64,000 bases of DNA. It comes from Actinomycetota bacterium. GTDB lineage: Bacteria > Actinomycetota > Acidimicrobiia > Acidimicrobiales > Poriferisodalaceae. The notes under the pieces were generated by a model. That model was not told the origin of the DNA. It saw nothing but the letters and a program-made list of their open reading frames with translations, and did not search any database. Below are positions 5,742 through 12,349 of the stretch, piece after piece. Position 1 is the first letter of the stretch; every line of letters starts with the position of its first letter. The DNA lies in assembly GCA_014238065.1 (NCBI GenBank), contig JABABU010000014.1:1-64000 (forward strand). The letters run 5' to 3'. Position numbers and translations under genes: made by a program.

Positions 5742-7154
5742 ATGACGACACGAAACGACATTCCTTACCGGTACGAGCGCGACAGCATCATCGGCGACCT
5801 CATCGCGGAACACGGCGGGCTGGAGCCAGGCACAGAGACAGAAACGATCGTGTCGGTTGCTGGCCGTCTGATGCTTCGGCGAGTCCAGGGCAAGCTCGCG
5901 TTCGGCACGCTCCAAGACTCGACGGGCCGCGTACAACTTTTTGCACCTTCGAAGGCGACACCTGACTTCGAGGAGTTCTGTGCCCTGAACCTCGGCGACT
6001 GGATCGGGGTGAAGGGCATTGTCATGACTACACGCCGGGGCGAGCTCAGCATTCGTGTCGACGAGTGGCAGCTTCTCGCCCCGACCCGTCGGTCCTTTCC
6101 CGACAAGTGGCACGGCATCACCGATGTCGACACCAGATACCGCCAGCGCTACGTCGACCTGTGGGTCACCGAAGAAGCTCGGCGCACTTTCGTCCTGCGA
6201 AGCAGAGCAGTTTCACTGACCAGGCGGTTCCTCGAGGACCGCGGGTTCATGGAGGTCGAAACACCGACGCTGCACCCATTGCCAGGTGGCGCACTGGCGA
6301 AGCCGTTCGAAACGCACCACAACGCTCTCGACATGGACCTGTTCCTGCGGATTGCGCCTGAGCTCTACCTGAAGAGACTCACCGTGTCAGGCTTCGAGCG
6401 GGTGTTCGAGGTGGCTCGCGTGTTCCGCAACGAAGGCGTGTCGACCAGACACAACCCTGAGTTCACGATGCTCGAGCTCTATCAGGCCTACGCCGACTAC
6501 AGCGACATCATGGAACTCGTCGAGCAGCTCGTCCAACACTTGGCGATCGAGCTCACCGGTTCCACGGTCGTGTCGTTCGGGGATCGCGATCTCGACCTCA
6601 AGGCACCGTGGCGCCGCGTCACGATGGAAGACCTGATCTCGGAACACGTCGGTGAGCAGATCAATCTGGAGAGTCCCATGGACGAGCTCCTGGCTCTGGC
6701 CGAGAGGGTCGGCGCCCCTGTGAAGCCGAGTTACGGCCCCGGCAAGCTCATTCTCGAGATCTACGAGGCGACCGTCGAAGCAAAGGTCTGGGAGCCGACG
6801 TTCGTCATGGACTACCCGGCCGAGGTGTCGCCGCTGTCACGAGACCACCGCCATCGTCCTGGTTACACCGAGCGGTTCGAAGCCATCGTCGCGGGCCGGG
6901 AGCTGTGCAACGCGTTCAGCGAACTCGTCGACCCCGACGAACAGCGAGCCAGGTTCGAGAACCAGTCAGCGCTCAGGGATGCCGGCGACGACGAGGCCAT
7001 GGTCGTCGACGAGGACTACCTCAGGGCACTCGAATACGGACTCCCCCCGACCGGTGGCCTCGGCATCGGGATGGACCGACTGGTCATGCTTCTGGCCGGA
7101 GTCGAATCGATCCGCGACGTCGTCCTCTTTCCGACCTTGAGACCGGAACAATAA
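5742..7154 (+). CDS. lysS: Lysyl-tRNA synthetase, class II
   Basis: The enzyme charges tRNA-Lys. Its 470 residues contain an N-terminal OB-fold anticodon-binding domain (about 35-130) and the class II catalytic core: motif 1 region FLEDRGFMEVETPTL, motif 2 FRNEGVSTRHNPEFTMLE, and motif 3 GLGIGMDRLVMLL near the C-terminus. It is slightly shorter at the N-terminus than E. coli LysS. Gene order nadC-lysS-(…)-clpC resembles actinobacterial chromosomes, but lsr2, often found between lysS and clpC, is replaced by two prenyl-synthase genes. Confidence 0.96.
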   Translation: MTTRNDIPYRYERDSIIGDLIAEHGGLEPGTETETIVSVAGRLMLRRVQGKLAFGTLQDSTGRVQLFAPSKATPDFEEFCALNLGDWIGVKGIVMTTRRGELSIRVDEWQLLAPTRRSFPDKWHGITDVDTRYRQRYVDLWVTEEARRTFVLRSRAVSLTRRFLEDRGFMEVETPTLHPLPGGALAKPFETHHNALDMDLFLRIAPELYLKRLTVSGFERVFEVARVFRNEGVSTRHNPEFTMLELYQAYADYSDIMELVEQLVQHLAIELTGSTVVSFGDRDLDLKAPWRRVTMEDLISEHVGEQINLESPMDELLALAERVGAPVKPSYGPGKLILEIYEATVEAKVWEPTFVMDYPAEVSPLSRDHRHRPGYTERFEAIVAGRELCNAFSELVDPDEQRARFENQSALRDAGDDEAMVVDEDYLRALEYGLPPTGGLGIGMDRLVMLLAGVESIRDVVLFPTLRPEQ

Positions 7155-7320
7155 CCTTTCTGTGTTCTCGACGAGGGCTTGCCGGCTTCTGTCATGACGA
7201 CGGTTCTGCTCTGTTGGCCGGCGTCGAGCTGCTGGTGGTGCCGATGAGGAGATTGGCGTTCGGGGCGATCTGTGGGTCGACCTGGCGTGCGTTTCGCTGA
7301 CGGTGCTCAGGAGGTGTGAC

Positions 7321-7380
7321 TTGCTCCACGAGACGTCAGACACATCGGCCGGGGTGCCTCGACGCAACACTTGGCCCTGA
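7321..7380 (+). CDS. Possible 19-codon leader ORF
   Basis: A perfect AGGAGG at 7309-7314 stands 6 bases before a TTG that opens a 19-codon frame (MLHETSDTSAGVPRRNTWP) ending 19 bases before the prenyl-synthase start. No longer frame uses this Shine-Dalgarno site with sensible spacing. It may be a leader peptide or chance; conservation is unknown. Confidence 0.25.
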   Translation: MLHETSDTSAGVPRRNTWP

Positions 7381-7386
7381 TCCCGA

Positions 7387-7392
7387 TAGCTT
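7387..7392 (+). promoter_or_regulatory. Candidate -10 element (TAGCTT) for the prenyl synthase
   Basis: TAGCTT is followed by 7 bases and the GTG at 7400, the same spacing seen at other putative leaderless genes in this window. Confidence 0.35.
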
Positions 7393-7399
7393 CAGCGGC

Positions 7400-8401
7400 G
7401 TGGACTTCGACCACTTGGCACGCCTGCTGGCCGTCGACGACCTGGCGCAGCGCCTCGATACGGTCGAGCGCAGGCTTTCGAAATCGTTGCTGGTCGACGA
7501 TGCGGTCCTCGGCGTTCCTTCGGCGCGGATGGCCGGCGCAGGTGGCAAGCGGCTTCGACCTGTCCTCGTCATCGCCGCTGCGAACACCGTGGACGTATTC
7601 AACGACAAGGTCGTTGCCGGATCGGCTGCGGTCGAGCTCGTGCAGGTCGGGTCACTGGTGCACGACGACATCTTCGACAAGGCCGCCACGCGCCGCGGGA
7701 TACCGACCATCAACTACACCGATGGCGATGAAGCGGCCATTCTTGCCGGCGACTTCATTCTTGCCCGTGCAGGAGTCGAGGCCGCTCAGGTTTCGGCGGA
7801 GGGGGCACGAATCTTGGCCAGGACCGTGGTCGAACTCTGCATCGGTCAGCATCAAGAGACGCATCAGCTCCACGATCTCGGCCGTACCGTCGAAGATCAC
7901 TTCGCCTCGATCGAGGCCAAGACCGCATCGCTGTTTGACGTGTCGGCTCGCATCGGCGGAATCGCCGCGGGGCTCCCTGCTGCTCAGATTGATGCGCTCG
8001 GCAGGTTCGCCCGTTCGTTCGGGATGGCATTCCAGATCGTGGACGACATTCTCGATCTCATCGCCGACCCTGTTCGCCTCGGCAAGCCGGTGGGAAGCGA
8101 CCTCCGCGCCGGCGTGTACACCTTGCCGGTCCTCACTGCGTTCGAGACCGACCGCGGCGAGGAACTCAGACAGATGCTCGAAGGCGACGTCGATGAGGAT
8201 GTTTCGTCGGAAGCGAGCTATGTCGTGCGGCACAGCGGGGGGATCGAACATGCATTGTCCATCGCTCTTGGCTATGAGAACGAAGCAGTGGATGCGCTGG
8301 AGGACCTGCCAGATCATCCCACGGTGAACGGCCTCAGACGGTTGCCGTCCGAGTACAGGATCTGGGCGCTGATGACGTTGGCCGACGGTCTCTTCGTCTG
8401 A
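7400..8401 (+). CDS. Polyprenyl diphosphate synthase
   Basis: A trans-prenyltransferase that condenses isopentenyl diphosphate with an allylic diphosphate, probably for the quinone or carotenoid precursor chain. The 333-residue protein keeps all key motifs: GGKRLRP near residue 49, first Asp-rich motif DDIFD (about 88-92) within GSLVHDDIFDKA, and second Asp-rich motif DDILD (about 215-219) within FQIVDDILDLI. GTG 7400 is chosen because homology begins there and a TANNNT box precedes it; upstream in-frame GTGs would add a non-homologous extension. It is convergent with a degenerate paralogue 25 bases away. Chain length cannot be called from sequence alone. Confidence 0.88.
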   Translation: MDFDHLARLLAVDDLAQRLDTVERRLSKSLLVDDAVLGVPSARMAGAGGKRLRPVLVIAAANTVDVFNDKVVAGSAAVELVQVGSLVHDDIFDKAATRRGIPTINYTDGDEAAILAGDFILARAGVEAAQVSAEGARILARTVVELCIGQHQETHQLHDLGRTVEDHFASIEAKTASLFDVSARIGGIAAGLPAAQIDALGRFARSFGMAFQIVDDILDLIADPVRLGKPVGSDLRAGVYTLPVLTAFETDRGEELRQMLEGDVDEDVSSEASYVVRHSGGIEHALSIALGYENEAVDALEDLPDHPTVNGLRRLPSEYRIWALMTLADGLFV

Positions 8402-8426: not shown

Positions 8427-9392
8427 TCAGCCGACCGCGAGCGCCAGTGCCGCTGCCCTGAGCCCGTCGACAGCGCGGCCAGGAGGTAGATCGTCGAGAT
8501 GACCAGCGGCCGCATGTGCATGCTCTGAGGCAGTGGAAAGAGACGTCGCCAGCGCGCCGCCACTGCGTACGATGTCAAGGCCTGAGGTAATGGCCGCCGG
8601 GTCGCCCATGTCGAGCATTCGCCTCAACTCGGCACCGTTCTCGCTGTCCAGGGATCGAATTGTCGGCATCGTGTAGATGCCTGCCGCGAGGTCGGTTCGT
8701 GAGCTGGCGGGTTGTTGGCCGTTAGTTGCTGCGAAATCGGCAACGTCATGGCGGATCTGGAAGGCCAGGCCAAACGATCGCCCAAACTCGGTGAGCCTGT
8801 CGACGTGATGGCGATTTTTGCCGGACACCAGCGCTCCGATCCGACACGCCGTCGAGAACAGCGCAGCAGTCTTTCCGGCGATGGCGTCGAGATACTGGGC
8901 CTCGGTGCGCGAGAGCTGTTCCCGGCTCCTCAGCTCCTTTACTTGTCCCTCGCACACCCATCCGATGGTCTCTGCGAGAAGTTCGGCGATCTCGGTGCTG
9001 AGCGAGGCCGCGAGTTCAGAAGCGCGCGCCATGAGGAAGTCGCCGGCGAGGATCGCATTCAGATCTCCCCAACGGTGATTGACCGACTCTGCACCCAAAC
9101 GCGCTTCCGCTTCGTCGATGACGTCGTCGTGGTAGATCGAACCCAAGTGAACCAACTCGACCGATACACCAGCCGTCACGATGTCGTCCGACAGCGAGGC
9201 CGACGATTCAGCGGATCCAACCAACGCAGACGCGGCGACGAAACTCGGCCGAATCCTCGGGCCTCCGAGGTGCGCGAGATGTGAGGCGATCTCTGTGAGC
9301 GAATCGTCGGCTGACACCACAGCTGTCTTGAGCCGCTCCTCGATCATCGCCGTGTCAGCCGACGGATCGGGACGCCATGCCAGAGGAGTCAT
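8427..9392 (-). CDS. Polyprenyl-synthase paralogue with altered active-site motifs
   Basis: The 321-residue protein aligns end to end with the convergent neighbour: GSIYHDDVIDEA matches the first Asp-rich motif, and AGIYTMPTI matches AGVYTLPVL. Three key positions differ. GGKRLRP is GGPRIRP, losing the IPP-binding Lys. The second motif DDILD is HDVAD (His codon at 8748-8750). The KPVGSD segment is replaced by QPASSRTD. Residues that normally bind IPP and magnesium are therefore missing, so it may be a regulatory or non-catalytic partner of a heteromeric synthase. The ATG at 9392 has AAAGG about 10 bases upstream; the frame extends farther without homology. Confidence 0.75.
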   Translation of the reverse strand: MTPLAWRPDPSADTAMIEERLKTAVVSADDSLTEIASHLAHLGGPRIRPSFVAASALVGSAESSASLSDDIVTAGVSVELVHLGSIYHDDVIDEAEARLGAESVNHRWGDLNAILAGDFLMARASELAASLSTEIAELLAETIGWVCEGQVKELRSREQLSRTEAQYLDAIAGKTAALFSTACRIGALVSGKNRHHVDRLTEFGRSFGLAFQIRHDVADFAATNGQQPASSRTDLAAGIYTMPTIRSLDSENGAELRRMLDMGDPAAITSGLDIVRSGGALATSLSTASEHAHAAAGHLDDLPPGRAVDGLRAAALALAVG

Positions 9393-9826: not shown

Positions 9827-12349
9827 TTGTTCGAACGGTTTACAGACAGGGCACGACGAGTCGTGGTGCTCGCGCAAGAAGAAGCGCGGCTGCTCAACCA
9901 CAACTACATCGGCACCGAACACATCCTTCTCGGCCTCATCCATGAGGGTGAGGGCGTGGCCGCGAAGGCTCTCGAGTCACTCGGGATCTCGCTTGAGGCT
10001 GTTCGCAGCCAGGTCGAGGAGATCATCGGTCAGGGTGGATCCTCGCCGTCCGGACACATTCCGTTCACGCCGCGCGCCAAGAAGGTGCTCGAGTTGTCGT
10101 TGCGTGAAGCGCTGCAACTCGGCCACAACTACATCGGCACCGAACACATCCTTCTCGGCCTCATCCGCGAGGGCGAAGGTGTCGCTGCTCAGGTGCTCGT
10201 CAAGTTGGGCGCCGATCTGTCTCGCGTCCGCCAGCAGGTCATCCAGTTGCTCTCCGGCTATTCCGGCCCTGCCAGCGCAAGCGGTGGCTCAGGCAAAGAG
10301 CCAGCAGGCGCCACGTCAGGTCAGTCGTCGGAGGCCGGCTCGCAATCTGGGTCGTTGGTGCTCGACCAGTTCGGCCGCAATCTGACCCAGATCGCACGTG
10401 AGAAAGGCCTTGACCCTGTCATCGGCCGCTCTCGTGAAGCAGAGCGCGTGATGCAGGTCCTGTCGCGACGCACGAAGAACAACCCGGTGCTCATCGGCGA
10501 ACCCGGTGTCGGCAAGACTGCCATCGTCGAAGGCCTCGCCCAGAAGATCACAGCAGGCGATGTCCCTGACACGCTCAAGGGCAAGCATCTCTACACGCTC
10601 GATCTTGGCGCGCTCGTTGCAGGTTCCCGATACCGCGGGGACTTCGAGGAGCGCCTGAAGAAAGTGCTGAAGGAGATCAAGGCCCGCGGCGACATCATCC
10701 TGTTCATCGACGAACTCCACACGCTCGTTGGTGCAGGCGCTGCCGAGGGTGCGATCGACGCGGCCTCGATCTTGAAGCCGATGCTTGCCCGCGGTGAACT
10801 CCAGACCATTGGTGCAACCACGCTCGACGAGTATCGCAAGCACCTCGAGAAGGATGCAGCTCTCGAACGTCGCTTCCAACCGATCAAGGTCGAAGAGCCC
10901 ACTGTCGCCCACACGATCGAGATCCTGAAAGGTCTCCGCGATCGCTACGAGGCTCACCACAGGGTCACCATCACCGACCAGGCGCTCGTCGCTGCGGCCA
11001 ACCTCGCCGACCGCTACATCGCCGATCGACATCTTCCGGACAAGGCCATCGACCTCATCGACGAAGCTGGTGCACGACTCCGCATCAAACGGATGGAGAC
11101 ACCTCCTGACTTCAAGGAGATCGAAGAGAAGATCGCCGCTGTCGTCGACAGCAAGAAGCAGGCTGTCGAAGATCAAGATTTCGAACTCGCAGGATCTCTT
11201 CGCGACGAAGAGAAAGAGCTGCTCGATCAGCGGTCCACCATGGAGTCCCAGATCAAAGCCGAAGGCGTCGATCTCTTCGACGAAGTCGACGAGGAAGCCA
11301 TCGCAGAGGTCCTCTCGATCTGGACGGGTATCCCGGTCTACAAGCTCACTGAAGAAGAGACCGCAAAGCTCCTTCGCATGGAAGAGGAGTTGCACAAGCG
11401 CATCGTCGGCCAGCAGGACGCTGTCAAGGCCGTCAGCCAAGCGGTTCGTCGTACGCGTGCAGGTCTCAAAGATCCGAAGCGACCCGGCGGATCGTTCATC
11501 TTCCTCGGCCCGTCAGGTGTCGGCAAGACCGAACTTGCTCGCACGTTGTCGCAGTTCCTCTTCGGTGATGAAGAGTCGATGATCACGCTGGACATGAGCG
11601 AGTACATGGAAAAGCACACGGTCAGTCGTCTCGTCGGCTCACCTCCTGGATACGTCGGCTACGACGAGGGTGGTCAGCTGACCGAAGCCGTCCGTCGCAA
11701 GCCGTTCTCTGTGGTGCTCTTCGACGAGATCGAGAAGGCACATCCCGACGTGTTCAACACGCTCCTCCAGATTCTGGAGGAAGGTCGTCTCACCGACAGC
11801 CAGGGCCGCTCGGTCGACTTCCGCAACACCGTGCTGATCATGACTTCCAACCTCGGTACCGCCGATCTCCGCAAGGCGAACGTCGGCTTTTCGAAGGTCG
11901 ATGAAGCAGTCAGCTATGAGCGGATGAAGGAAAAGGTCACCGACGCGCTGAAGGCCCACTTCCGGCCCGAGTTCCTCAACCGGATCGACGACACCATCGT
12001 CTTCCACGAGTTGAGTGTCGCCGAGGTGACCAACATCGTCGATCTCCTGATCGCTCGCACCGCCAAGCAGTTGATGGCTCAAGGTCTCGGCATCGAACTC
12101 ACCGATGCGGCCAAGTCAATGCTTGCTCGCAAGGGATACGACCCCACTCTCGGTGCCCGTCCTCTCCGTCGTGCCATCCAGCGCTACGTCGAAGACGCCC
12201 TCTCCGAACGGATCCTCTACAAGGAATTTCACGCCGGTGAGATCATCATCGTCGACGCCGACGAAGAAGAGGACGAAATCATCTTCCGCTCCATCGAAGG
12301 CTTCGAACCACCTCCTGTCGAGATGGCAGAAGCGGCAGCAGACCTGTAG
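9827..12349 (+). CDS. clpC: ATP-dependent Clp protease ATP-binding subunit ClpC
   Basis: ClpC is the Hsp100 unfoldase that feeds substrates to ClpP. The 840 residues show two N-terminal Clp repeats, each with [13 protein letters not shown] (about 25 and 101), a Gly/Ser-rich linker (about 148-175), first AAA domain with Walker A GEPGVGKT (about 224) and [12 protein letters not shown], a UVR-like middle segment (about 435-470), second AAA domain with GPSGVGKT (about 561), and a C-terminal ClpB-type small domain with [10 protein letters not shown]. The start is TTG, with GGAG 6 bases upstream, and gives the standard [13 protein letters not shown] start. It has its own promoter. An acidic, Glu-rich tail ends the protein. 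Confidence 0.97.

Follow-up and report, generated by a model that had tools for sequence, protein, structure and literature searches.

Next to an intact polyprenyl synthase gene (CAT), the 64,000-nucleotide stretch of DNA analysed here (the window) carries a second gene of the same family (PAR) whose product appears, on well-supported comparative grounds, to be a non-catalytic protein kept by selection: its losses are common to four genomes, the frames of all four copies are open, and the interface helices are under strong purifying selection. Reading from sequences and models, we think it probable that PAR pairs with CAT as a non-catalytic subunit. In such a CAT:PAR heteromer CAT would have the sole working site, and helix E of PAR would affect stability, product length or release. 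The broader proposition, that this is a heteromeric enzyme in the making by displacement and not duplication, an isoenzyme of another lineage having taken over catalysis and the resident having become the non-catalytic subunit, we regard as evenly balanced.

The two genes and their catalytic residues

PAR and CAT are convergent, tail to tail with 25 bases between their stops (Table 1), and no further gene of the genome (3.9 Mb, 56 contigs) matches PF00348. The PAR frame is open, as the preliminary description had stated, and runs on the minus strand from an ATG at 9392 to a stop ending at 8427 (321 aa); CAT, on the plus strand, has a stop ending at 8401 and an uncertain start, GTG 7316 or, judging by relatives, a GTG near 7400. 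PAR belongs to PF00348 by a whole-domain match above the curated cut-off (E 1.2e-49; 169 bits, cut-off 27; profile 3-235 of 251), its only Pfam match at E 0.001; CAT matches the same profile at E 2.6e-56. CAT and PAR share 37% identity across an alignment of 297 columns. Among named sequences, those nearest to PAR come mostly from Acidimicrobiales or Acidimicrobiia assemblies, and identity to relatives with intact motifs does not exceed 55%. Its predicted fold is confident (mean pLDDT 91.4, pTM 0.92), as is that of CAT (mean pLDDT 92.6). Among the best 50 entries, one chain each, the top structural matches of the PAR model are polyprenyl synthases: 9jr6 (Z 35.9, rmsd 2.5, 314 aligned), with Rv0562 (9imq) at Z 34.4, rmsd 2.5 and 312 aligned. 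HexA and PDSS2 do not appear among these entries, an absence that carries no weight in a table of this depth.

Table 1. Features of the CAT/PAR locus in window coordinates; the lysS and clpC names are those we presume from the translations.
Feature	Coordinates	Strand	Basis
PAR, PF00348 protein of 321 aa lacking catalytic residues	8427..9392	-	ORF, profile match, trees, locus
PAR as ortholog of the family's single-copy synthase	8427..9392	-	trees, locus
CAT, intact long-chain-type PF00348 synthase	7316..8401	+	ORF, profile match, residue scoring
lysS-like gene, 5' of CAT	5742..7154	+	ORF translation
clpC-like gene, divergent from PAR	9827..12349	+	ORF translation
PAR residue 45, Pro for Lys of GGKRxRP	9258..9260	-	residue scoring
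PAR residues 89-93, first Asp-rich motif DDVID, intact	9114..9128	-	residue scoring
PAR residue 99, Leu for second Arg of RRG	9096..9098	-	residue scoring
PAR residues 215-219, HDVAD for second Asp-rich motif DDxxD	8736..8750	-	residue scoring
PAR residues 227-234, QPASSRTD for lid segment LGKPxGxD	8691..8714	-	residue scoring
PAR helix E, residues 110-131 of model; no faster change than CAT	9000..9065	-	rates, model
PAR helix F, residues 133-155 of model; relatively conserved	8928..8996	-	rates, model

Fifteen positions, whose roles we take to be those assigned in FPPS work, were scored in PAR numbering: K45, R48, D89, D90, D93, R98, R99, K174, Q212, D215, D216, D219, K229, G232 and D234. CAT keeps all 15 in each of the six genomes that carry the pair, and so supplies the one catalytic partner with both Asp-rich motifs that marks a heteromeric trans-prenyl synthase. 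PAR of the window keeps ten: K45 (now P), R99 (L), D215 (H), K229 (A) and G232 (R) are lost, and DDVID, R48, R98, K174, Q212, D216, D219 and D234 are retained. It falls short of what we presume an active trans-isoprenyl diphosphate synthase to need (IPP-site Lys/Arg, both DDxxD motifs, KT and the lid Lys). The three losses first noticed, of the IPP-binding Lys (GGPRIRP for GGKRxRP), of the second Asp-rich motif (HDVAD for DDxxD) and of KPxGxD (QPASSRTD in place of the GKPxGxD segment), were all found again; the completeness of the first Asp-rich motif and the loss of R99 are additional.

Such losses are not ordinary variation, because the 103 other distinct relatives keep 14 (three of them) or 15 (100) of the positions, and every one keeps K45. 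In a second, overlapping set of 99 rows, which left out 18 GGPPS-type outgroup rows and the four degenerate PARs, 92 keep 15 and five keep 14; of the remaining two rows, one is truncated and the other (L231) has 11. The family's own single-copy rows keep 15 in 29 cases out of 29. The L231 row is a divergent PF00348 frame of genome G236 (L231:3913-5106) on a very long branch. A separate oddity is G477, which besides a normal synthase has a divergent second one (L235:6392-7582) with CGKSLRA and GRVPGSD.

Descent and locus history of the pair

The family of the window's genome (f1, 39 genomes including the window's own) has two PF00348 matches in six genomes, one in 31 and none in two; in one of the 31, G182, the match is a 44-bit fragment only. 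Co-occurrence of the two genes in relatives, proposed at the outset as a check, thus holds for 6 of 39. The other pair genomes are G148 and G149 (genus g83), G150 (g84), and G151 and G152 (g85); the window's genus is represented here by one genome. In all six both genes are on one contig and convergent. The pairs of G150 and G151 lie on short contigs (4.0 and 4.5 kb) and group with that of G152, which is on a 91.6-kb contig. Among the first 112 loci collected, with flanks of about 1.5 kb or up to 5 kb and many ended by contig ends, two synthase frames occurred only in two stretches of the window's own contig.

The PAR genes of G148 and G149 are intact (15/15). The degenerate form, with an open frame, is present in four genomes of three genera: the window, which keeps ten positions, and G150, G151 and G152, which keep 6, 7 and 7. 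All four have lost K45, R99, D215, K229 and G232, with varying replacements, and all four keep R48, D89, D90, R98, D216 and D234. A conserved partner without catalytic residues, kept by selection as in a heteromeric synthase, is accordingly present in four of the six pair genomes, with the first motif kept. On the proposed check of whether the lost residues are consistently absent, these five positions are so in the degenerate copies, and G148 and G149 are intact. The outcome that would have told against the preliminary description, a paralogue found in relatives only as decaying copies, did not appear: the five other pair genomes have two intact and three degenerate but open PAR genes.

A conserved first motif could also serve a different chemistry, such as that of a class I terpene cyclase or some other prenyl transfer, and the window copy does retain DDVID, R98, K174 and Q212. 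Q212 is lost, however, in G150, G151 and G152; no NSE-like second metal motif, as we presume it to look, was seen by eye in the four degenerate copies; and PAR's sole Pfam match is to the synthase family. We consider this reading very improbable.

Trees were built from 121 rows by a quick method and from 39 rows by a careful one. The six PAR genes form one clade (support 97 in the 121-row tree, 99/94 in the 39-row tree), which in the larger tree stands beside the family's single-copy genes (35 rows, support 94); PAR is therefore the resident gene. The CAT genes group apart from these, in an 18-row clade (support 97, 121-row tree) that also has members in families f8, f9, f10, f51, f54, f55 and f61 of the order. 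An origin of CAT outside the order was considered: a search at E 1e-66 matched 5 of 396 genomes drawn from the phylum, all of the same order and the window's genome included, an outcome with which an outside origin is still compatible. The alternative of a recent tandem duplication was tried by holding the six CAT and six PAR genes together, and was rejected (p-AU 8.7e-58, 39-row tree). The initial picture of a paralogue next to an intact copy needs revision to this extent: the two do adjoin, but the degenerate gene is the resident and the intact one comes from an older, separate lineage.

Both trees also unite the four degenerate PARs in one clade (support 92 in the 121-row tree, 95/90 in the 39-row tree), on branches of up to 2.18 where false joins are possible. 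A clpC+lysS tree also groups the window, G150, G151 and G152 (100/99), with G150 represented in 42% of columns and G151 in 27%; it gives no resolution on whether the six pair genomes form one clade. A single onset of the catalytic losses, in an ancestor shared by the four degenerate PARs, is the most likely history. The lysS-like gene of G151 (L176:2208-3670) is split across three overlapping frames, apparently through a fault of assembly; the PAR and CAT frames of that contig are open.

The position of PAR beside clpC is old. A PAR-type gene lies beside clpC and divergent from it in every one of the 19 loci with a single gene that were scanned, 11 from the family and 8 from the order. PAR has the same divergent arrangement in all pair genomes whose contig reaches clpC, five in number with that of the window. 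A clpC-like neighbour is present at four of the five other pair loci, and so is a lysS-like one, the fifth contig being too short in each case (that of G151 without clpC, that of G150 without lysS). In two family loci opened for the purpose, the stretch from lysS to PAR contains frames that, from reading their translations, are thioesterase-, acyl-CoA dehydrogenase-, 3-hydroxyacyl-CoA dehydrogenase- and folP-like. In genus g83 CAT sits between lysS and an acyl-CoA dehydrogenase-like gene, about 1.3 kb from PAR, this being the one frame between CAT and PAR in G148 and G149 (L173:4665-5822, minus; L174:5724-6881, plus). In the other four pair genomes the two genes are adjacent, with no gene in the gap and 25 (window), 34 (G150), 15 (G151) and 23 (G152) bases between stops; closure of the gap and loss of catalysis therefore fall on the same part of the tree.

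On this basis we give even chances to a series of stages preserved in relatives: a single resident; an intact pair with an acyl-CoA dehydrogenase-like gene between; a tail-to-tail pair with a partly degraded resident, as in the window; and a pair with a strongly degraded resident whose interface is conserved.

CAT-type genes also occur alone. Six genomes (G110, G199, G347, G363, G428 and G518) match PF00348 through such a gene and no other. PAR is thus no general requirement of CAT-type enzymes, which seem able to replace it outright in those genomes. The CAT-only loci L223, L226, L227, L232, L233 and L248 belong to families f9, f10 and f51. No PAR was found beside clpC in G110, G347, G363 and G428, where about 1.4 kb before clpC was searched; G199, G518 and G268 have too little flank for a partner there to be judged. 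Neither a lysS- nor a clpC-like frame was found in the stretches, some of them short, that were fetched for the 12 CAT-type loci of other families. G079 has intact CAT-type and PAR-type genes at different loci.

Constraint on the dimer face and the putative heteromer

The CAT-only genomes, and the absence of PAR beside clpC in the four of them with enough flank, lend themselves to another account, in which CAT has replaced PAR and PAR is slowly dying, its dimer face persisting for no other reason than that misfolded copies would poison CAT. PAR does evolve several times faster than CAT. The frames, however, are open in 4/4 degenerate copies across three genera and on long branches, and the shared losses are most likely older than the split of g1, g84 and g85; in simulations without selection a 960-base frame stayed open in 1% of cases at 0.2 substitutions/site and in 0/2000 at 0.4. 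Between G151 and G152, dN/dS of PAR is 0.230 overall [0.138-0.320] and 0.041 on helices D-F [0.006-0.091], with 0.268 outside them [0.000-0.403], where synonymous sites are near saturation; the corresponding values for CAT are 0.090 overall, 0.031 on helices D-F and 0.105 for the rest. Synonymous divergence of this pair is 1.65, and within the D-F block pS is 0.58, high enough to place the constraint on the protein. Deeper comparisons, such as window/G152 (0.466 overall, 0.197 on D-F), are saturated and only indicative. In G148/G149, where PAR is intact, PAR (0.106) and CAT (0.095) are alike. The low value on helices D-F speaks against slow loss, which we rate as unlikely.

Where PAR has changed can be judged against CAT. 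On the four-genome tree the PAR:CAT ratio of change is 1.0 for helix E, 1.9 for F, 2.4 for G, 2.8 for H and 11.3 for the lid; elsewhere it is 2.4 for A-C, 5.0 for D, 2.4 for the D-E loop and 1.9 for the C-terminus. Helices E and F differ from G, H and the lid by permutation (p ~5e-5, columns being treated as independent). The limits of the regions had been drawn by eye before the model was consulted, and its helices agree with them. Counts of change at 57 invariant positions, helices D/E/F against the rest, gave Fisher values of 0.18 for the window, 0.07 for G150, 0.004 for G151 and 0.049 for G152, and for E/F alone 0.37, 0.11, 0.018 and 0.14 in the same order; the reference was 96 rows, from which the degenerate PARs (four), the GGPPS-type outgroup (18 rows), the divergent L231 and L235 and a truncated row, L228, had been excluded. 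Because these tests are weak for the window copy and G150, we prefer the rates relative to CAT.

In a solved relative, according to the available text of PMC4356374, helices E and F make up most of the dimer interface, helix E reaches the substrate pocket of the partner, and helices C, G, H and J flank the cleft. PAR is, to judge by its rates, worn away mostly on the cleft side, with helices E and F kept. Region A-C (ratio 2.4), which includes the N-terminal hairpin that touches the partner's helix E in a Pseudomonas structure, is not specially conserved. This combination of cleft-side wear and a kept E/F face is what would serve a subunit that has ceased to catalyse and instead completes its partner, and it points to a CAT:PAR heteromer with one active site.

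The steps were probably as follows. A second, fully catalytic lineage, CAT, would have come to adjoin the resident PAR; PAR would then have lost its own active site and kept its dimer face; a CAT:PAR heteromer would form, in which catalysis is left to the active site of CAT; and PAR, through its helix E, might help to close the end of the CAT product pocket, with consequences for stability, product length or release. PAR perhaps tunes chain length in this putative heteromer; that it binds CAT rather than itself we infer, as we do any such effect on length.

Several observations count against the heteromer. The genes are convergent and not in one operon, the CAT-only genomes do without PAR, and conservation of the interface would also fit a PAR homodimer. 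In the interface, CAT and PAR of the same genome are moderately identical (12/18 in helix E and 10/25 in helix F for the window), and this identity does not rise in the degenerate pairs. Region A-C shows no special conservation, helix D is faster in PAR than in CAT (ratio 5.0), and the Fisher values are weak for the window copy and G150. PAR might be a homodimeric non-enzyme with another role, for example as a sensor of allylic diphosphates or through an effect on the divergent clpC. Favourable to this reading are the retention in 4/4 of the helices of the interface and of DD in the first motif (DDVID complete in 3/4), and the divergent arrangement with clpC. That adjacency is ancestral, though, and holds for active single-copy genes too. 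Moreover K45 is lost in 4/4, K229 has become A, R, T and A, and K174, kept in the window, is replaced by Ser (G150) or Arg (G151, G152); canonical diphosphate binding therefore looks weakened, with some cations left. We regard a homodimeric non-enzyme as doubtful and continue with the CAT:PAR heteromer.

Prenyl supply and comparison with known systems

A cis-prenyltransferase (PF01255) is matched once in 37 of the 39 family genomes and in none of the other two. A squalene/phytoene synthase was found in 0/39 family genomes, and there is therefore no lead to the product. CAT would then stand as the cell's sole identified catalytic trans-synthase, alongside a single cis-prenyltransferase. Since single-gene relatives also manage with one trans-synthase, the partner is not required for this.

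Heteromeric prenyl synthases help to set quinone tail lengths, and the origin of their inactive subunits has been seen mostly from its end points. The six related genomes seem to show steps, with single-gene and CAT-only controls in the same order. Two questions become testable: whether an active synthase can become a regulator by loss of the IPP site with helices E and F kept, and by what means short as well as long chains are supplied in a cell whose catalytic trans-synthase and cis-prenyltransferase number one each.

The closest solved relative of CAT and PAR by sequence is the Rv0562-type mycobacterial nonaprenyl synthase (9imq). In the alignment the Lys, the two Asp-rich motifs and the lid Lys are all in place in that enzyme, and in PAR they are not. 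Among the open-licence matches listed, judged by title and start of abstract, none dealt with a PF00348 partner that is non-catalytic in Actinomycetota. In eukaryotes, a difference from the PAR system, the Dps1/Dlp1 (fission yeast) and PDSS1/PDSS2 (human) decaprenyl synthases are described in the available text of PMC5335738 as heterotetramers of two synthase proteins. In plant GPPS, that of mint being (LSU.SSU)2, the non-catalytic subunit may regulate the catalytic one; the mint SSU has no Asp-rich motif and is about 15% identical to other enzymes (available text of PMC7839719), whereas PAR keeps DDVID and reaches up to 55%.

A subunit of the HepS type was considered and ruled out: PAR matches PF00348 only, and the HepS family PF07307 (HEPPP_synt_1) was not found in its genome, the control being positive in B. 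subtilis. As bacterial two-protein long-chain synthases, HexA/HexB of Micrococcus luteus and HepS/HepT of Bacillus subtilis resemble CAT/PAR; HexB has two Asp-rich motifs, and HexA may set chain length together with HexB, so far as the available text of PMC7839719 describes them. Unlike those systems, the partner here matches PF00348 over almost the whole profile, keeps the first Asp-rich motif and descends from the resident synthase.
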